Assembly (NCBI GenBank): GCA_937918935.1
Contig: CAKZSI010000031.1
Location: 1 to 64,000, forward strand
Length of the DNA: 64,000 nt
Direction of reading: 5' to 3'
Origin: an uncultured Chloroflexales bacterium
GTDB lineage: Bacteria > Chloroflexota > Chloroflexia > Chloroflexales > Chloroflexaceae
Below the pieces are notes generated by a model. The model worked only from the letters and a program-made list of their open reading frames with translations. It was not told the origin of the DNA and ran no database searches. Below, in pieces: positions 2,238-63,101 of the stretch; the first letter of the stretch is position 1, and every line of letters starts with the position of its first letter. The position numbers and the translations under genes are program-made.

Positions 2238-2405
2238 ATGCCAGGAAACGGCTCAAACCTGAGGCGCCACTGGAGGGGCGCGGGGAGGCTTCCCTTCCCC
2301 GCTATCCCCAAACAGTTGCGCAACAGACCGCACGGTGCGCCGCCAGTGCCACAAGGCGCCGTGAATCGGAGCGTCTGGCAGGGCGCAGCCCTCCCAGGAA
2401 CATCC

Positions 2406-4230: not shown

Positions 4231-5937
4231 ATGGAGACTACGCGCTGGAGCTACGTGAGCGGAACGAGTGACGTGCCCCTGCTGGGCGTAACCATCGGCG
4301 ATTGTTTCGACGCCATCGCCGCCCGCTTTCCCGACAACGAGGCCCTGGTGGTGCGCCAGCAGGGCCTGCGCTACACCTACGCCGATCTGAAGACCGACGT
4401 GGATCGCTGCGCCCGTGGGCTGATGGCCCTGGGGATCGCGAAAGGCGAGCGTGTCGGCATCTGGGCGCCCAACCGCGCCGAATGGCTGATCACCCAGCTC
4501 GCCACCAGTAAGATCGGCGCCATCCTGGTCAACATCAACCCGGCCTACCGCCTCCACGAACTCGAGTACGCCCTGCACCAGTCTGGCTGTAGCGCCCTGA
4601 TCTTCGCCCCGCAGTTCCGCGGCTCCGACTACAGCGCCATGCTCTACAACCTGCTGCCCGAACTGCACCAGGCCCAGCCGGGGCGCCTGGCGGCGGGACG
4701 CCTGCCCGACCTGCGCACCGTCATTCGCCTGGGCGACGAACCGGCCCCCGGCATGTTCACCTGGAACGACGTGCTGGCCGTCGCCGAACAGGTCAGCCCC
4801 GCCGACCTTGCCGTGCGACAGGCCGAACAGCAGTTCGACGATCCGATCAACATCCAGTACACCTCCGGCACGACCGGCTATCCCAAAGGCGCGACGCTCA
4901 GCCATCACAACATCCTCAACAATGGCTACTTCGTCGCTCGCCTGATGCGCTTTACCGACAAGGATCGCCTGGTGATCCCCGTGCCACTGTACCACTGCTT
5001 CGGCATGGTCATGGGCAATCTCGGCTGCATCACCCACGGCGCAACGATTATCTACCCCTCCGAGGGCTTCGAGCCGCTGGCCGTGCTCCAGGCCGTGCAG
5101 GAAGAGCGCGCCACCGCCCTCTTCGGCGTGCCGACCATGTTCATCGCCGAACTCGACCATCCCGAATTCAGCCAGTTCGACCTTGGCAGCCTGCGTACCG
5201 GGGTGATGGCCGGCGCGCCCTGCCCGGTCGAGGTGATGCGCAACGTCCACTCGCTGATGAACATGCGCGAAGTGGAGATCTGCTACGGTATGACCGAGAC
5301 CAGCCCCGTCAGCACCCAGACCCGCATCGGCGCGCCGTTGGAGAAGCAGGTCGGCACCGTCGGCCAGGTGCACCCCCACGTCGAAATCAAGATTATTGAC
5401 CCGGTTAGCGGCAAGGTGCTGCCCCGCGGCCAGACGGGCGAGTTGTGCACGCGGGGCTACTCGGTGATGCTGGGCTACTGGAACAACGAGGAAGCCACGC
5501 GCAAGGCAATTGACGCCGCCGGCTGGATGCACACCGGCGACCTGGCGGTGATGGACGAGGAAGGGTACATCAACATCGTCGGGCGGATCAAGGATATGAT
5601 CATCCGCGGCGGCGAGAATGTCTATCCCCGCGAGATCGAGGAGTTCCTCTACACCCATCCCAAGGTCAGCGACGTGCAGGTGATCGGCGTGCCCGACGAA
5701 CGCTATGGCGAGGAGATCATGGCCTGGATCAAGCTCAAGCCCGGCGAAACCGCCGACGAGGAGGAGATCCGCCACTTCTGCCGCGGGCAGATCGCCCATT
5801 TCAAGATTCCTCGTTATGTTAAGTTTGTGGAGAGTTTTCCAATGACCGTCACCGGCAAGGTGCAGAAGTTCCGCATGCGCGAGCAGAGCATCGAGGAACT
5901 GAACCTGCGCGCCGCCGCCTCCCTGCGCACGGCCTGA
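4231..5937 (+). CDS. acyl-CoA synthetase (AMP-forming), FadD-like
   Basis: A 568-residue adenylate-forming enzyme. It activates a fatty or other carboxylic acid with ATP and joins it to CoA, feeding beta-oxidation or lipid synthesis. The AMP-binding P-loop [11 protein letters not shown] starts at about residue 210. YGMTETSP follows in the middle, and the C-terminal [12 protein letters not shown] carries the catalytic lysine. The start is set by the ATG at 4231 behind GGAGGAGCGTCAGT; upstream codons in frame are repeat DNA. Chain-length preference cannot be read from sequence. A hairpin directly follows the stop. Confidence 0.9.
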
Positions 5938-5964
5938 GGCGCGGAGGGCTACGCCCTCCGCGCC
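5938..5964 (+). terminator. GC-rich hairpin after the acyl-CoA synthetase
   Basis: Arms of 12 bp (GGCGCGGAGGGC / GCCCTCCGCGCC) with a 3-base loop begin on the first base after the TGA. There is no T-run. This is one of the GGGAGGGC-type hairpins that follow several genes here. Confidence 0.6.
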
Positions 5965-5970
5965 GCCTCG

Positions 5971-6036
5971 CGTTCCGCCCGCAGCGGCGGCTGTGTCCTG
6001 ATTTCGCCAACGCGCGCGCCCGCTGCGGGCGGAACG
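5971..6036. repeat. long hairpin element, copy 1 (17-bp arms, 32-nt loop)
   Basis: Perfect 17-bp arms CGTTCCGCCCGCAGCGG (5971-5987) and its complement (6020-6036) enclose a 32-nt loop. A second copy in the opposite orientation lies at 40076-40139 with the same arm sequence, the same loop length and a loop matching at about 20 of 32 positions. This is a dispersed element rather than a chance palindrome. Confidence 0.7.
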
Positions 6037-6108
6037 GAGCTGCGAGGAGTTGAGACGCCATATACGGCAATCCAGAATCCTAAAACCACCGGAGGAACAG
6101 GTTTCCCC

Positions 6109-7035
6109 ATGCCCAAACATCCCCTCGCCATGGCCCTGGCCAAGGTCGTCATCGCTGCCGCCTGGGCCGATGGGCACCTTGCTCACGATGAAGTCAACAG
6201 CCTGAAGAACCTCCTCGCCGAAATGGGCCAGACGGTCGGCAGCGGCGAGATGGCCCTGACCATGCAGGACTGGGCCGAACTGGATATTTACCTTTACTCA
6301 CCCGTGGAAGTAGAAGAACGCCAGCGCCTGGTCACCGAACTGGCCGCGCTGATGCGCGGCCCGCGCGACCGGCAACTGGCCTTGCAGGCCCTCGACCGGC
6401 TCTTCGCTGCCGATCACGTCCAGCACGAGGCCGAGCGCCAGGTGGCCGCCGAGATCCGCGCCGCCCTGGAACGGGCCGACCCGGGGCCTCTGGCGGCCCT
6501 GGGTGGGTTCGTGCGCCGCAGTCTCGGTCTCCAGCCCGCCGGACCGAACCGCGAGCAGTACCTGGAGGAGTTCCTGAACAACCGGGTGTACTACGCCGTG
6601 CGCGTGCGCCTGGGCAAGGCCCCCGAGGAGGATCTGGGCATCCCCGCCGGGGAGGCCCGCGCCCTGGCCCTCGCTGGCGGCATCCTCGCCAGCCTGGCGC
6701 ACCTCGACGCCCAGGTCACCGAGGAGGAGCGCGAGCGCATCATCGCGGCCCTGCAGCAGGGCTGGGGTATCAGCCGCGACCGGGCGGTGCTGGTCACCGA
6801 GGCCGCCATCGTCGAGAGCAAGGAACACCTGGACCCGTATACGCTGACCAACGCCTTCGCCGAGAGCACCAGTGTCAAGGAGCGTATCCGCTTCCTCGAC
6901 GCATTGTTTGCGGTTGCCGCCGCCGACGATGGCGCCATTTCGAGCGAGGCCAGCGCCATGATCAGTCGCATCACCAGCGCCATCCGCCTGGAACAACGCC
7001 ATTTTATCGAGGCCAAACGCCGCGCCACGAGATGA
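6109..7035 (+). CDS. TerB-like helical protein
   Basis: A 308-residue, mainly helical soluble protein. Two segments look like TerB/DjlA-type domains: one near 5-110 (LAKVVIAAAWADGHLAHDEV...LLAEMG) and one near 190-305 (LALAGGILASLAHLDAQVTEEE, later LFAVAAADDGAISSEA). Acidic residues recur at the places where TerB-like domains bind metal. Such domains occur in tellurite-resistance and membrane-stress proteins, but the role here is unknown. A GGAGGAAC ribosome site precedes the ATG; part of that leader matches the dispersed TTTCCCCATGCCC repeat. The stop overlaps an upstream start option of the M14 gene. Confidence 0.65.
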   Translation: MPKHPLAMALAKVVIAAAWADGHLAHDEVNSLKNLLAEMGQTVGSGEMALTMQDWAELDIYLYSPVEVEERQRLVTELAALMRGPRDRQLALQALDRLFAADHVQHEAERQVAAEIRAALERADPGPLAALGGFVRRSLGLQPAGPNREQYLEEFLNNRVYYAVRVRLGKAPEEDLGIPAGEARALALAGGILASLAHLDAQVTEEERERIIAALQQGWGISRDRAVLVTEAAIVESKEHLDPYTLTNAFAESTSVKERIRFLDALFAVAAADDGAISSEASAMISRITSAIRLEQRHFIEAKRRATR

Positions 7036-13406: not shown

Positions 13407-14378
13407 ATGAGCATCCAATTCGGCGCCTTCGTGCCCCAGGGTTGGCGGCTGGATCTGGTGGAGATCACTGATCCGGTCGAGAAATACGAGGCCATGACCC
13501 GCGTCGCCCGGGCCGTGGACGCCATTCCAGCCTACGACTCGATCTGGGTCTACGACCACTTCCACACCGTGCCGAGCATCGAGCAGGAAACCGTCTTCGA
13601 GGCCTGGACCATCACCGCCGCGCTGGCCCGCGACACGCAGCGGGTCAAGGTCGGCCAGATGTGCACCTGCATTGGCTATCGCAACCCCGCCCTGGCCGCC
13701 AAGATCGCCTCCACGGTGGACGTGTTGAGCCACGGGCGCCTCTACTGTGGTATTGGCGCCGGCTGGTACGAGCACGAGTGGCGCGCCTACGGCTATGGCT
13801 TCCCCGAACGGCGCGATCGTATGCGCGCCTTCCGCGAAGCGACCCAGATCATGGTCAAAATGTGGACCGAGGAGACGCCGACCTTCGAGGGCGAATACTT
13901 CCATATTCGCGGCGCGATCAACCAGCCCAAAGGAGTACGCCAGCCGCATCCTTCGCTGTGGATCGCCGGCGGGGGCGAGCAGGTCACCCTGAAGCTCGTC
14001 GCGCAGTACGGCAACGCCGCAAACTTCATGGGCAGCCCCGAGGAGTTCCGGCGCAAGTGCGACGTGCTGCGCGCCCACTGCGCGGCCCTGGGCCGTGACT
14101 ACGATGCGATCATCAAGTCAACCAACGTCAATATCATCTTCGTCGGCCCCGGCCAGAACGCAGAGCAGGCCACTGCACCAGTTCGCGCCCTCTACAACTG
14201 GAACCTGGAGCAGACGCAGCGCAACTTCATCGTCGGCACGCCGCAGCAGGTCGCCGAACGCCTCAACGCGCTCAAAGAGGCCGGCGCGACCTACTTTATC
14301 ACCTACTTCCCCCGCGTGGCCTACGACCACACCCCGCTGCACATCTTCGCCGATGAGGTAGTTCCGTGGATATGCTGA
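13407..14378 (+). CDS. F420-dependent LLM-class oxidoreductase
   Basis: A 323-residue TIM-barrel protein of the luciferase-like monooxygenase superfamily. It fits the F420-dependent subgroup best: the N-terminal GAFVPQGW, the DSIWVYDHF region, GIGAGWYEHEWRAYG, and the late RKCDVLRAHCAALGRDY segment are typical. It would oxidise or reduce a small substrate with deazaflavin F420; an FMN enzyme is the alternative. The ATG at 13407 follows GAGGAGTGCC. Its last 13 bases overlap the start of the WD40 lipoprotein gene, so the two are probably co-translated. Confidence 0.8.
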   Translation: MSIQFGAFVPQGWRLDLVEITDPVEKYEAMTRVARAVDAIPAYDSIWVYDHFHTVPSIEQETVFEAWTITAALARDTQRVKVGQMCTCIGYRNPALAAKIASTVDVLSHGRLYCGIGAGWYEHEWRAYGYGFPERRDRMRAFREATQIMVKMWTEETPTFEGEYFHIRGAINQPKGVRQPHPSLWIAGGGEQVTLKLVAQYGNAANFMGSPEEFRRKCDVLRAHCAALGRDYDAIIKSTNVNIIFVGPGQNAEQATAPVRALYNWNLEQTQRNFIVGTPQQVAERLNALKEAGATYFITYFPRVAYDHTPLHIFADEVVPWIC

Positions 14379-16351
14379 CCGAACACCGTATCATTGGCAT
14401 CCTGACCACCCTGACGCTGGCGGTGTTGACCTCGGCCTGCGGCGGTCTGCTGCCCGGCAACCAGTCGTCCGGTCCCACGTCCACAGCGCCCGTGTACAGA
14501 CCTGTCGCGCGCCTCGGCGAAGGCACGCTCAAAACACTGGCCGTCTCACCCGATGGCACACTCGCCGCCTTTGCCACCAGCCTGGGGATCGCCCTCTACG
14601 ACCTGAGCAAGAGGCAATTCGTGCGGGTGCTGGCCCCCGCCGAGGGGGTTGAGCGGGTGGCCTTCTCGCCCGACGGACGCCTTATCGCCGCAGGGGTGTT
14701 CGTCGGGCGCACCACGGGTCGCGAGGAGCGCGGCGGCGTTCAGATGGAGACCTCGAGGGTCAGGATTGCAATCCGCCTCTGGCAAGTCGCCGATGGCGCA
14801 GCGATCAGCACCTTCGATGCGCACAACTCGTCCATCTACGGGCTGGCATTTTCCCCTGATGGACAACTGCTCGCCTCGGGCGGTCACGACGACAGTGTAA
14901 AGCTGTGGCGCGTGAGCGATGGCGCCTTGCGCTTCTCCTTCACCCATCCACGGGTCTTTGACGTGGCCTTCACACCTGACGGCGAGTTGCTTGCAGCCGC
15001 CGGAAACGAGCCGTTCATCCCACTCTGGCAGGTGAGCGACGGCACGCTGGCGGGCAGGCTGGCCGGTGGCCAGCGCGGCTTTATGGGCCTCGGCTTCGCT
15101 CCCGATGGCCGGACCCTGGCCGCCGGCTCCTTCGACCAGAGCGCGTATCTCTGGCGCCTGAGCGACGGCGCACTGCTACAGACCCTGGCCGGTCACGCCG
15201 CCTATGTCACCGCCGTTGCCTTCGCTCCTGATGGCCGGACCCTGGCCAGCAGTTCCTTCGACCATACCATCCGCCTCTGGCGCCCGGACGATGGCGCGCT
15301 GCTGCAGACGCTGGAAGGCCACACGCACTCGGTAACCGCCGTGGCCTTCACCCCAGACGGCGCCACGCTGCTCTCCGCCTCGCTGGACCAGACCGCGCGC
15401 CAATGGCGGATCAGCGACGGGCGCCTGCTGGACACCCCTGGCGCCTTCTCGGACGCCGTGCTTGACGTGGCCTTCTCCCCTGACAGCGCGCTGGCAGCCG
15501 CCGCTACGCAGGGCGAGCAGATCAAGCTCTGGCGCATCAGCGATCGCACCCTGATCCGTACCCTGGAGGGACATACGGGGTATGTAACCAGCATTGCCTT
15601 CTCACCCGACGGGCAACTGCTGGCCTCGGGCGCCTCCGACCGCACCACGCGGCTCTGGCGCGCGCATGATGGCCTCCTCCTCCATACCCTGGGTGAACAC
15701 ATCTGGGAGGTCAACGACGTTGCCTTCACCCCCGACGGGCAGACCCTGGCCACCGCGGCGAATGACGGCGCCGTGCGGCTCTGGCGCGTCAGCGACGGCG
15801 CCCTGTTGCGCGTCCTGGGGAAACCGGAGCCGCAGTTGAATGCCATACGGGCCGTCGCCTTCGCCCCCGACGGCGAAACCCTGGCCAGCGCCAGTCAGGA
15901 CGGGAGCGTACAACTGTGGCGGGTGCGCGACGGCGCGCCGTTACGCAGATTACCCGCGCCCGCGGCGAGCAACACCCCGCTCGTTACCGGTCTGGCCTTC
16001 TCGCCGAACGGCCGGCGCATCGCCGCCAGTTATGACTTCGCCGCCCCGAACGCCAGCAGCAGAAGTGAAGCGCGGGTGTGGGAAACATCGAGCGGGCAAG
16101 TGCTGCTCAACCTTACCGGGCACACCCTGCCCGTCACCGGGGTAGCCTTCGCCCCCGACGGACAGACGCTGGCGACGTCCTCCCGTGACCAGACCGTCCG
16201 GTTGTGGCGCGCCGACAGCGGCGCGCCAGCAGGCATCCTGGAAGGCCACAGCGATGCCGTCTGGTGCGTGAGCTTCGCCCCCGACGGGGCCATGCTCGCT
16301 TCTGGCGACCGAAGCGGGACAACCTTGCTCTGGTCGCTGCCGGCGCCGTGA
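14366..16351 (+). CDS. WD40-repeat lipoprotein
   Basis: A 661-residue protein with a lipoprotein signal peptide; the lipobox LTSAC puts the lipidated Cys at 25. The rest is about 13-14 WD40 repeats of the form VAFSPDG..LASGS.D.TVRLWR..DG, enough for two seven-bladed propellers. It would sit outside the membrane as a binding scaffold. No other domain is visible. It overlaps the upstream oxidoreductase gene by 13 bases. The repeats are similar at DNA level and prone to internal recombination. An in-frame ATG at 14372 is an alternative start. Confidence 0.85.
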   Translation: MDMLTEHRIIGILTTLTLAVLTSACGGLLPGNQSSGPTSTAPVYRPVARLGEGTLKTLAVSPDGTLAAFATSLGIALYDLSKRQFVRVLAPAEGVERVAFSPDGRLIAAGVFVGRTTGREERGGVQMETSRVRIAIRLWQVADGAAISTFDAHNSSIYGLAFSPDGQLLASGGHDDSVKLWRVSDGALRFSFTHPRVFDVAFTPDGELLAAAGNEPFIPLWQVSDGTLAGRLAGGQRGFMGLGFAPDGRTLAAGSFDQSAYLWRLSDGALLQTLAGHAAYVTAVAFAPDGRTLASSSFDHTIRLWRPDDGALLQTLEGHTHSVTAVAFTPDGATLLSASLDQTARQWRISDGRLLDTPGAFSDAVLDVAFSPDSALAAAATQGEQIKLWRISDRTLIRTLEGHTGYVTSIAFSPDGQLLASGASDRTTRLWRAHDGLLLHTLGEHIWEVNDVAFTPDGQTLATAANDGAVRLWRVSDGALLRVLGKPEPQLNAIRAVAFAPDGETLASASQDGSVQLWRVRDGAPLRRLPAPAASNTPLVTGLAFSPNGRRIAASYDFAAPNASSRSEARVWETSSGQVLLNLTGHTLPVTGVAFAPDGQTLATSSRDQTVRLWRADSGAPAGILEGHSDAVWCVSFAPDGAMLASGDRSGTTLLWSLPAP

Positions 16352-30622: not shown

Positions 30623-30772
30623 GGCCCCGGCCCGCCGTACCGGGAGCGCTTCGCCCTGCGGCGCCTTCATGTTGAACGCAGGGGCTGCGCATCATCGCCT
30701 GGTCTCATCCGGACGGCACATACGGCAATCCAATGTCCGCAATTCACGATCCGAAATCTAGAGGAGGCCGTC

Positions 30773-36126: not shown

Positions 36127-36154
36127 AGAGCAGCCGAAGATGAGGAGGACTGCA

Positions 36155-39100
36155 ATGGCGCGCCCAATCGAATTTGTGCTGATCCTTGGTCTACAACGCT
36201 ACAGCCACGATCTGTTCCGCCAGGCCGAGGCCCAGGTGCGTACCGAGGTTCCGGAGTTTAGGGTGCACGTGTTCGAGGATAGCGATGTGCAGCGCCGACC
36301 CCAGGAGGTCGAAGCCGCGCTTGCGCGCTGCACCTGTCTGATAGCCTCGATCATCACTCTTCACGAAACCGCCGAATGGCTCGTGCCAGCCGTCGAGCGC
36401 CTCGACCCGCCGGTGGTGTTCTGCTTCGAGAGCGTCCCCGAGGTAATGCGGCTGACCAGGGTGGGCAACTACTCCATGCGCGGCAAGGGCGGCGGCATGC
36501 CCAAACCGGTGCAGAATGTTGCCCGCCTGCTGGTCGGCAACCGTGAAGAAGATGCCTATTATGGGTATGTCAAGCTCCAGAAGATCACCTCGAAACTGGT
36601 CAATTTCCTCCCCGGCAAGCGCCTCAACGACTTCCGCAACTGGACTAACGTTACCACCTACTGGAATAATCGCGATGTCGCCAACACGGCGAACATGTTC
36701 AAGTTGATCCTGCGCGAGTACGGTGGTCTCCCGAAGCTCCACGTGGAGCCTGCCGTGGAACTGCCGGGAATGGGCTTTGCCCATCCCGATGCGCCACGCT
36801 ACTTCGGCAAGCCCGAGGAGTATGTGCGCTGGGAGAAAGAGCGCGCCCGGACCCGGGGCAAAGTCGCCCGCCCGCCGGCAACGCCCCTGGGCACGGTGGC
36901 GATACTCTCTTTCCGCGCGCATATTCTCGGCGGCACCCACTACCACGCCGACCTGGTGCGCACACTCGAGGCCGCCGGTCTGCGCGTGCTGCCGATCTTC
37001 GTCCAGGGTATCGAGAGCCATGTCGTCGTCCGCGAGTGGCTCACCAGGCTCAATGTGGATGTAGTGATCAACACGATGGGTTTTCCACTCGTGGGCGGGC
37101 CGGCTGGGTCTTCCAAGGCTGGCCTGACCGTCACCGTGGCCCGGGAACTGCTCGGGAAGCTCGACGTTCCGTATATCGTGGCTTCGCCACTCTTTGTGCA
37201 AGATGAGGACCACTGGCGTGAACATGGGGTTGGCCCGCTGCAGGCTGCCATCCTCTACTCATTGCCCGAGATGGACGGCGCAGTGGCTCCCGTAGTCCTC
37301 GGCGGTATGCGTGGCACCGAGATCGGCACTGTGCCCGACCGCCTCGAACGACTCGCCACCCTTGCCCGCGGGTTCGCGCGCCTGCGTCATACGCCCAATC
37401 GCGAAAAGAAACTGGCCCTGGTGGTCTACAACTATCCCCCCGGTCAGGGCAATACCGCCACCGCGGCCCTGCTCGATGTGCCCGCCACGTTGATCGCCCT
37501 CCTCGACCGGCTCAAGGCCGCTGGCTACAGCGTCGGCGAGTACCCGCGCGACCCGGCACAACTGGCCCGCTGCCTGGAGGCCTCCATCCGCGCCGATCTG
37601 CCCGAACTGCCCCCCGGTCATCCCCCGGTGTCGCGCCCCATGGCCGGCCGCGAGCACTTCCATACCTGGCTGCGTCCTGTGGATCAGGAGCGCATCAACG
37701 CCCGCTGGGGGCCCTTTCCCGGCGATCTTGCCCCTGCCGGACGCGATGCCGTGCGCCTCGGCGGGATGACCCTGGGCAATATCTACATCGGCGTCCAGCC
37801 GATGATCGGCATGCCCGGCGACCCCATGCGCCTGCTCTTCGACCGCGAGAATACCCCGCACCACCAGTACGCCCTGTTCTACAAGTACCTGACCGAGCAG
37901 TTCGGCGCCCACGCCATCGTCCACGTGGGTATGCACGGCACGGCGGAGTGGATGCCTGGCGTGCAACTCGGCGTCACCGAGCACTGCTGGCCCGATGTGC
38001 TCCTGGGTGCCGTGCCCAACTTCTATATCTATCCGATCAACAACCCCGCCGAGGCCAACATCGCCAAGCGCCGCGGGTTCTCGGTGATCGTCGGGCACGC
38101 CATTCCGCCCTACGGCCGCGCCGGGTTGTACAAGGAACTGCAGGCTCTCAAGGACATCCTCGAAGAGTACCGCGAACGCCCGGTTGAGGATCTTGAGGCG
38201 GCCATTACGCAGAAGATCGAACTCCTCAACCTCGATGTAGAACTGGCACGCTACCAGGACGAGCCGTTCGCCGACTTCGCCTCGCGGGTCTATGCCTACC
38301 TGCGCGATCTGGAGGCCACGCTGATCACCGATCGTCTCCACGTCCTTGGCAGCGCCCCGCCGGCCGAGGAGCAACTGACCCTGGTGGTCGAGGCGCTCAA
38401 GATCCCCCGCGACGGCAACCCTGGCCTGGGCGACCTGGCGATGAGCGCGGTGACCGGGCGCGCCGCCGGCGAAGGGCAGGCTCAGGACGGCTACACCGCC
38501 CTGCTCGCCCAGGCGCGCCGGGGCGACCTCGCCGCGCTGGAACTGCGCGACCGCGTCGAGACGGTCTGCAATGAGTTCGTGCGGCGGGCCGTGTTCCACG
38601 GCGAAGCGCCCGAACGGGCCTGGCAGGCCGTTCTGGGCATCAGCGAGGCCGGAGCCGCGGCCTGGAACATCTTCCTCGTGCCACTCACCGAACTGGGGCG
38701 GGCCATGCTCGCCGCCCTGCGTGATAATACCCAGGAACTGGACTTCCTGCTCCGCGGCCTCGATGGGCGCTACATCCCCGCCGCCCCCGGTGGCGACCTG
38801 ATCCGCGACGGCCTGGCCGTCTTGCCCACCGGGCGCAACATTCACAGCCTCGACCCCTTCCGCGTGCCCTCCGATAGCGCCTACCAGCGCGGCGTGCGCA
38901 TCGCCGAGGCCCTCATCGCCGCCCATCGCGCCCAGCACGACGGAGCCTACCCCGAAACCATCGCCCAGGTCCTCTGGGGCCTCGATTCGATCAAGACCAG
39001 GGGCGAAGCGATCGGCACCGTCCTCGGCCTGATCGGCGCCCGCCCGGTCAAGGACGGCCAGGGCAAGGTGGGACGCTACACCCTCATCCCCCTCGAGGAA

Positions 39101-40009
39101 CTGGGCCGCCCGCGCATTGACGTGCTGATGACCGCCTCGGGCATCTTCCGCGATACTTTCGCCGGTACGATCGATCTGCTCGACCGCCTGGTCTGCGACG
39201 CCGCCCGGGCCGAAGAACCGGAGGACCTGAACTTCATCCGCAAGCACGTGCAGGCGCTGCTCGCCGAGGGCAAGACCTGGGAGGCGGCGACGGCACGTAT
39301 CTTTACTCAGGCCGAGGGCGCCTACGGCACCGATGTGGACGAGGCCATCGAGGGCAGCGCCTGGGAAGACCGCCGCGAACTCGAAGAACTGTTCATCAAG
39401 CGCAACGCCTACGCCTTCGGCGGAGAAAAGGGTGGTGCGGCCCGGCCCGACGTGCTGCGCTCACTGCTCAAGACAGTGGACCATGTGGCCCAGGAGATCG
39501 ACTCGGTCGAATATGGTTTGACCGATATGCAGCACTACTATGGCTACTCCGGCGCCCTCAAGGCCGCCGCCGAACGTGCCACCGGCAAGGCGGTGCCCCT
39601 CAGTTACGTCGAGAGCTTCACCGCCGAGACCCGCGTGCAGAGCCTGGAGCAGGTGCTGCGGGTCGAGTATCGCACCCGCCTGCTCAACCCCAGATGGTAC
39701 GAAGGCATGCTCAAGCATGGCCACAACGGCGCCGCCGAGATTGCCCACCGTTTCACCTACATGCTTGGCTGGAGCGCCACCACCGGCGCGGTGGACAACT
39801 GGGTCTATGACCAGGCTGCGGCAACCTTCATCCTCGATGATGCCATGCGCCAGCGCCTGGAGGCCGCCAACCCTGAGGCCGCCCGCAATGCCGTCGGGCG
39901 GTTGCTCGAAGCCCACAGTCGCGGCATCTGGCAGACCGATGAGGAGACCCTCGATCGCCTGCGCGCGCTCCACGCCGACCTTGAAGATCGCCTGGAGGGG
40001 GTGCGTTAA
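36155..40009 (+). CDS. bchH: magnesium chelatase subunit H (BchH family)
   Basis: A 1284-residue protein of the CobN/BchH large-subunit family. It binds protoporphyrin IX and, with BchI and BchD, inserts Mg2+ in the first committed step of bacteriochlorophyll synthesis. The N-terminal DUF3479-type domain (IEFVLILGLQRYSHDLF...) and the full-length CobN-type core (GGTHYHADLVRTLE, HVGMHGTAEWMPG, NPAEANIAKRRGFSV) are intact. The HGTAEWMPG stretch is somewhat between the BchH and CobN consensus. GAGGAGGACTGCA precedes the ATG. No bchI, bchD or other bch gene is adjacent. Chloroflexales usually have several BchH paralogues, so this may be one of them; CobN is the alternative. Confidence 0.85.
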   Translation: MARPIEFVLILGLQRYSHDLFRQAEAQVRTEVPEFRVHVFEDSDVQRRPQEVEAALARCTCLIASIITLHETAEWLVPAVERLDPPVVFCFESVPEVMRLTRVGNYSMRGKGGGMPKPVQNVARLLVGNREEDAYYGYVKLQKITSKLVNFLPGKRLNDFRNWTNVTTYWNNRDVANTANMFKLILREYGGLPKLHVEPAVELPGMGFAHPDAPRYFGKPEEYVRWEKERARTRGKVARPPATPLGTVAILSFRAHILGGTHYHADLVRTLEAAGLRVLPIFVQGIESHVVVREWLTRLNVDVVINTMGFPLVGGPAGSSKAGLTVTVARELLGKLDVPYIVASPLFVQDEDHWREHGVGPLQAAILYSLPEMDGAVAPVVLGGMRGTEIGTVPDRLERLATLARGFARLRHTPNREKKLALVVYNYPPGQGNTATAALLDVPATLIALLDRLKAAGYSVGEYPRDPAQLARCLEASIRADLPELPPGHPPVSRPMAGREHFHTWLRPVDQERINARWGPFPGDLAPAGRDAVRLGGMTLGNIYIGVQPMIGMPGDPMRLLFDRENTPHHQYALFYKYLTEQFGAHAIVHVGMHGTAEWMPGVQLGVTEHCWPDVLLGAVPNFYIYPINNPAEANIAKRRGFSVIVGHAIPPYGRAGLYKELQALKDILEEYRERPVEDLEAAITQKIELLNLDVELARYQDEPFADFASRVYAYLRDLEATLITDRLHVLGSAPPAEEQLTLVVEALKIPRDGNPGLGDLAMSAVTGRAAGEGQAQDGYTALLAQARRGDLAALELRDRVETVCNEFVRRAVFHGEAPERAWQAVLGISEAGAAAWNIFLVPLTELGRAMLAALRDNTQELDFLLRGLDGRYIPAAPGGDLIRDGLAVLPTGRNIHSLDPFRVPSDSAYQRGVRIAEALIAAHRAQHDGAYPETIAQVLWGLDSIKTRGEAIGTVLGLIGARPVKDGQGKVGRYTLIPLEELGRPRIDVLMTASGIFRDTFAGTIDLLDRLVCDAARAEEPEDLNFIRKHVQALLAEGKTWEAATARIFTQAEGAYGTDVDEAIEGSAWEDRRELEELFIKRNAYAFGGEKGGAARPDVLRSLLKTVDHVAQEIDSVEYGLTDMQHYYGYSGALKAAAERATGKAVPLSYVESFTAETRVQSLEQVLRVEYRTRLLNPRWYEGMLKHGHNGAAEIAHRFTYMLGWSATTGAVDNWVYDQAAATFILDDAMRQRLEAANPEAARNAVGRLLEAHSRGIWQTDEETLDRLRALHADLEDRLEGVR

Positions 40010-40222
40010 GCCCTGGCACACACCTGCATTGCGGTTGGGAGCGGCGCGGGAAGGCTCTGACTCCCCGCAACCCCTGTTCCGCCCGTGGCGGGCCCGCACC
40101 CTGGTGAAAACAGGTCATGTCTACCGCCGCGGGCGGAACCACCGGTTCGCACAGGGCTGTGCCCTCCGCACCTCCGCCGAATGGCAATCCAAAAGGCTGC
40201 GCAGCGAAATGATCTCCAGGGG
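40010..40222. other. gap after bchH
   Basis: A 213-base gap between convergent genes. It contains the long hairpin element (40076-40139) and a GGGCTGTGCCCT palindrome near 40157. Nothing coding is convincing. Confidence 0.5.
40076..40139. repeat. long hairpin element, copy 2
   Basis: Arms GTTCCGCCCGTGGCGG (40076-40091) and CCGCCGCGGGCGGAAC (40124-40139) pair with one G-T wobble and enclose a 32-nt loop. Arms match copy 1 at 5971-6036. The loop is the same length and matches copy 1 in reverse complement at about 20 of 32 positions. Confidence 0.7.
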
Positions 40223-50604: not shown

Positions 50605-50955
50605 AGAACCTCCTCATGGTTCGCGCGCCGGGGCGCCTGCCAGGGCACGCCCCGGCGCGTGTTTGATACGGCATAAATGATACCACAAGCGCTGGCGGGC
50701 GAACCGGTGCTAATACCGGATGACCGCTCCGGGAGGGTCTGAGAGGGCGCGGCCCTCGCAGGAACGCCGGGTCCTCGCTCGTCGGGAGGGAGGTGGGGAA
50801 ACCAGATTTCCCACCCCCCTCCCGATTACGCACAGGGGCCGGGAGAGCTGCGCCCGCGGCGATGGGCGTTCTTCCATCCGCGACGGGCGTAGCCGAAGTG
50901 GATGCGAGGAGGCATACCCTCCCCGCACACCGTGAGGACGGTCATTGCTCAAGAC
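50605..50955. other. 350-base region upstream of gpmI
   Basis: It contains GGGAGGGTCTGAGAGGGCGCGGCCCTC near 50730 and a GGGGAAACC-family palindrome at about 50790-50815, both lying between gpmI and the end of the leftward operon. AT-rich TTTGATACGGCATAAATGATACC near 50663-50685 could be the gpmI promoter. No gene is visible. Confidence 0.5.
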
Positions 50956-60223: not shown

Positions 60224-60328
60224 TACGATTTTGGATTGTGGGTTGTCGTATATGGCGTGTCAGAGGGAACTGATGATTATGAATAGCTAAAGTGTCTGTG
60301 AAACCAGATCCAGGGAGAAGGAGGAGCA

Positions 60329-63011: not shown

Positions 63012-63046
63012 ATTGTAGATTGTAGATTGTAGATTGTGGGTTGTGG
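63012..63046. repeat. 7-bp tandem repeat (ATTGTAG)
   Basis: Three perfect ATTGTAG units followed by ATTGTGG and GTTGTGG, with more GGATTGTGGATT sequence at about 63069-63082. A similar GGATTGTGGGTTGT stretch lies at 60234-60247. AT-rich against a GC-rich background. Confidence 0.7.
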
Positions 63047-63101
63047 TAGGGGTGATGTTATGTTATTTTGGATTGTGGATTCTGGTTTTTGATTGCTGAA
63101 G

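Follow-up and report, generated by a model that had tools for sequence, protein, structure and literature searches.

Elements of the IS5 group are marked by 3-bp TNA duplications at their insertion sites. Prokaryotic MITEs include Chunjie (235 bp), QMITE2 (about 190 bp) and Correia (reviewed in PMC10969869). Repeated extragenic palindromes in an inverted arrangement form the REP/REPIN/BIME sequences that are associated with RAYT (PMC3116915; PMC2817692; PMC3733652); a palindrome of REP type is defined by a tag, either GTAG or CGTC, at one of its ends (PMC3733652). Finally, small hairpin-loop inversions were described at single loci in chloroplasts, where loops of 4–24 nt are involved (PMC6824564).

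The repeat reported here resembles prokaryotic MITEs by its size of less than 500 bp, its terminal inverted repeats, its mostly intergenic dispersal, its many partial copies and its strong predicted folds. Unlike typical MITEs, it is GC-rich, contains three separate internal palindromes and carries its loop in both orientations and, unlike the MITEs cited above, its parent element was not found among PF01609 in its own genome or PF13340 in the genus. The analyzed stretch of DNA, hereafter the window, is 64 kb long and belongs to contig C31 of a genome of 4.6 Mb in 85 contigs (G000), which was compared with four genomes of the same genus (G001 to G004).

The original prediction pointed to two hairpins with shared arms and the same 32-nt loop length at 5971–6036 (copy 1) and 40076–40139 (copy 2), and the measurement of the arms bore it out. 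The 17-bp arms of copy 1 (5971–5987 and 6020–6036) are 100% complementary and the 16-bp arms of copy 2 (40076–40091 and 40124–40139) are 94% complementary, with 32 nt between them in both cases. The announced likeness of the loops once one hairpin is inverted was likewise recovered, the loop of inverted copy 2 reading CCTGTTTTCACCA and that of copy 1 CCTGATTTCGCCA. Compared with dinucleotide shuffles, the folds reach z-scores of -5.3 and -5.4 on the two strands for copy 1, and of -5.8 and -3.7 for copy 2. The similarity between both hairpins is not due to chance. A covariance model of the 64-nt core, built from own-genome copies and used with a cut-off of E ≤ 0.01, identified 65 distinct places in G000 (82 matches, of which 17 repeat a listed place on its other strand), and the reading of a coincidence was thus not borne out. 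A pattern search of the same genome for the hairpin gave 87 matches vs. 18 in the reversed control. The 66-base hairpin proposed as the unit is real, but the true unit is 206 bp long and the hairpin represents only its middle third.

Indeed, alignment of the flanks uncovered conserved left and right halves on either side of the core. The consensus element is non-coding and measures 206 bp (186–213 bp in the copies, mostly near 206 bp), and is composed in order of GACATGGTTTCGCTGCGCGGCC..., hairpin A (GCGGAGGGCnnnGCCCTCCGC), the core, hairpin B (GCGGGGAGGCnnnGCCTCCCCGC) and ...GCAGGTGTGAACCATGTC. Its terminal inverted repeats GACATGGTT...AACCATGTC are short, with 9 bp in the consensus, and imperfect in single copies. 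In the central one of the three internal palindromes, arms of 16 bp enclose a loop of 32 nt. Hairpin A alone, with at most one mismatch, occurs at 29 places vs. none in the control. Deletion derivatives (L127, L143, L128, L139, and L141) have kept the ends and lost the loop or whole hairpins. An apparent subfamily, formed by L053, L078, L095 and partly L087, presents outer ends GTGTGGAGGGC...CACGAACTGCTCT on the left and CTCCGCCAGGAGGCGTTTTGCA on the right. At L084, the downstream gene appears to start at the ATG of the element's right terminus (GAACCATGTCTGAG); its G002 ortholog starts with a similar ACCATGTCT, which may reflect a remnant or chance.

Within the window, copy 2 is a complete element of about 207 bp (40010–40216, minus strand) located directly 3' of the stop codon of bchH, a gene (36140–40009) that encodes a BchH-like protein with CobN/Mg-chelatase and DUF3479 domains. 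On the same strand, it comprises a left terminal region (40201–40216, GAGATCATTTCGCTGC for a consensus GACATGGTTTCGCTGC), the left palindrome or hairpin A (40149–40169), the core hairpin with its asymmetric loop in the common forward orientation, the right palindrome or hairpin B (40046–40068) and a right terminal region (40010–40026, CAGGTGTGTGCCAGGGC for a consensus CAGGTGTGAACCATGTC). The TAA stop of bchH (40007–40009, TTA on the element strand) adjoins this right end and represents a putative 3-bp target. Copy 1 (about 5936–6053, plus strand) is truncated and lacks both ends; it retains hairpin A (5941–5961), the core (5971–6036), recognized by its arms, its fold and the covariance model, and the start of the right part. 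Its start falls on the TGA stop codon, ending at 5937, of a gene encoding an AMP-binding enzyme, so that both hairpins lie just after a gene, as had been claimed. Two degraded copies are also present, one made of a left part fused to hairpin B and the right end without core (2248–2340, minus strand, left boundary set by eye), the other of a shortened core followed by hairpin B (50847–50931, plus strand).

The window harbors further features. A second palindromic repeat, GTGGGGAAACCnGGTTTCCCCAC, is commoner, with 15 core matches vs. 0.1 expected (at 1330, 1404, 3735, 10256, 10388, 10489, 22342, 32722, 43147, 48791, and others). Repeats around GCAATCCAAAATCC / ATTTTGGATTGTGG are located at 6054–6089, 30712–30747, 60228–60254, and 63012–63091, and are frequent in G002 too. 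The ORF at 14366–16351 contains 126-bp tandem repeats, possibly beta-propeller repeats. Contigs C282 and C35 of G004 imply an inversion of the whole segment from 5934 to about 40600, and a TerB-domain gene (6109–7035) is unmatched at the inversion junctions. Copies 1 and 2 were considered as the ends of this inversion and rejected, since the right breakpoint lies 300–500 bp beyond copy 2.

The core model was searched in 41 genomes. In the congeners, it yielded 37 matches in G002, 97 in G003, two in G004 and one in G001, both strands of a place being counted, and it had no match in 20 genomes of the family from 17 other genera. Two genomes of the order gave one match each (E 0.004 and 5e-6). 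At least 50 of the 65 checked copies are intergenic, whereas coding frames occupy 78% of the window; gene context was assigned with a codon-position filter that over-counts coding sites, and an ORF-based count was dropped as unreliable in GC-rich DNA. These intergenic sites, some of them right behind stop codons, most likely reflect tolerated insertion rather than a role as RNA.

Past mobility of the element is well supported, and the mobile, MITE-like nature that had been proposed agrees with the dispersed copies, the terminal inverted repeats, the T-N-A flanks and the empty sites in congeners. At the site of copy 2 in G002, the stop of bchH runs to the downstream sequence with 4 bases replacing 218; the site is empty in G004 too, and G003 carries the element, altered by further sequence. 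Similarly, G003 carries the copy at C30:197464, which G002 and G004 lack. The copies at C72:74162 and C45:7246 do not provide clean empty sites because the orthologous sites may hold remnants or other indels. Individual empty sites were given up as a source of a clean target duplication, the flanks being too diverged at most loci. Among the left flanks, T is found at -3 in 35 of 62 and A at -1 in 31 of 62; right flanks show T in 32 of 46 and A in 27 of 46, with a mixed middle base. The two flanks carry the same trinucleotide in 4 of 29 copies vs. 1.4 expected from shuffles (p 0.03), many copies being mutated, and the middle base is equal in 12 vs. 6.6 expected (p 0.015), both p-values being somewhat optimistic since some copies in the test are orthologous pairs. 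Copy 2 has no clean duplication, as TTA on one flank faces CTG on the other, and the target duplication is a statistical signal across copies only. Taken together, the T-N-A flanks, the trinucleotide agreement and the empty sites suggest a DDE-type mechanism with a 3-bp duplication.

This flanking signature is like that of the IS5 group, but no matching transposase or ends were found and filing the repeat under IS5 is unjustified. Searches with PF01609 in G000 gave sub-threshold matches only, and PF13340 across the genus matched only in G001 (sub-threshold in G002), without the ends of the element. DDE_Tnp_1 and DUF4096 (IS5-like), the two DDE-type families searched, were thus discarded as parent, none having matching ends. 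A parent was also sought through the left end, and the coreless matches inspected in the own genome proved to be non-autonomous copies, fragments or solo left ends. An exact scan of genome contigs for the left end retrieved two loci in the Chloroflexaceae MAG SKW209, the sole named source of such matches, with no transposase recognized nearby. Together with the BchH-like gene, these matches identify the host as a phototrophic member of the Chloroflexaceae.

The asymmetry of the loop makes its direction relative to the ends of the element readable. Among 93 clearly oriented copies from the own genome and congeners, 70 loops are forward and 23 inverted, and the orientation is discordant in 3 of the 19 flank-matched pairs listed. 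The best pair associates L011 (own genome, C6) with L166 (G002), whose flanks match over 599 bp at 91%. Their element parts are co-directional on either side of the core (71/80 and 55/70), and their loops match at 28 of 32 positions when one is inverted vs. 15 of 32 otherwise. Since these loops are reciprocal best matches among 127 copies and the surrounding parts are co-directional, the loop is unlikely to have been replaced by that of another copy, and the alignments show convincingly that the two species differ in loop orientation at the same site. L001 and L250 are likely discordant as well, judging from their loops (26/32 inverted vs. 16/32 otherwise), which are best matches in one direction only, the right part of L250 aligning poorly. 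L024/L218 was rejected as a third discordant pair, its element parts being too diverged to count. Assembly errors could in principle produce flipped loops, but a typical read is longer than the 64 bp of the core. As in the chloroplast inversions (PMC6824564), a loop between short inverted arms occurs in both orientations among relatives, but here the loop is of 32 nt and is inverted in 23 of the 93 oriented copies that belong to a single family of bacterial repeats. A literature search retrieved no in-place loop inversion in bacterial MITEs, which is not proof of novelty.

Other explanations were considered for the repeat as a whole. A palindrome of REP/REPIN type, moved by a RAYT (Y1 tyrosine) transposase, would fit the many intergenic palindromes, their inverted arrangement and the presence of several hairpins per unit, which recall BIME/REPIN layouts. 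On the contrary, the family has a 206-bp unit with terminal inverted repeats, T-N-A flanks and empty sites, and a GTAG or CGTC tag is not evident on reading the consensus. Moreover, PF01797 was unmatched in G000, G002, G003, and G004 (the control was positive in 5 of 14 genomes) and only G001, which has a single core copy, presents one fragment barely above the cut-off. Membership in REP/REPIN fails because no RAYT/Y1 transposase is found in the genomes with most copies; the suggested REP/RAYT link was accordingly given up, and we consider this origin very improbable. A site-specific invertase acting on the 16-bp arms in a programmed way (inverton) could be invoked for the two loop orientations, of which one orthologous pair is convincing. 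Such a system seems scarcely credible, however, as 32 nt would be a very short spacer for a recombinase to act on, the copies are dispersed and neither a promoter nor an invertase was noticed in linkage with them, and chloroplast hairpins invert loops between short arms without it (PMC6824564).

The possibility that the hairpins are under selection as a structured RNA, or as a stabilizer or terminator at the 3' end of mRNAs, is unlikely, although less so. The folds are indeed very stable and the copies adjoin genes, right behind stop codons in the window. Furthermore, complementary double changes reach 23 vs. 15.4 in shuffles (p 0.026) across 97 copies, related ones included. Yet in 18 own-genome copies compensatory changes do not exceed shuffles, and arm changes across the 97 copies are 347 one-sided vs. 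42 two-sided; this at most weak excess of complementary pairs makes a selected RNA unlikely. In addition, several copies lack whole hairpins, and no T-run follows the core in copies 1 and 2. The small RNA initially envisaged also found no match in Rfam, which returned only one tRNA for the window, and the mutations of the arms are mostly uncompensated.

The explanation that we favor, and regard as probable, is an old and decaying family of non-autonomous MITE-like DNA transposons with T-N-A insertion and arm-mediated turning of the loop. A DDE-type transposase acting in trans probably cut at the GACATGGTT/AACCATGTC ends, and insertion would have targeted T-N-A sites and duplicated 3 bp. The family spread in a lineage ancestral to part of a single Chloroflexaceae genus. 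Decay is apparent from the copies, most of which are degraded and some deprived of whole hairpins. The arms allow the loop to turn in place, as the inversion between species at one site shows, most likely by strand switching within the hairpin during replication or repair. As far as could be seen, the repeat family is new and unusual by its internal loop turned in place.

A more tentative proposal, toward which the balance does not quite lean, is that the central loop flips in place at many sites, the copies forming a natural record of these events, and that it possibly still flips in living populations. In-place loop inversion was found documented mainly in chloroplasts and is here countable in bacteria; with about 100 aligned hairpins bearing such countable inversions, the rate and the cause of hairpin-mediated inversion become testable. 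The analysis accounts for a striking repeat found in phototrophic Chloroflexaceae, which places ready-made hairpins after bchH and other genes and whose dispersed copies, if the proposal is true, would record the frequency at which short DNA is inverted by hairpin-mediated strand switching.
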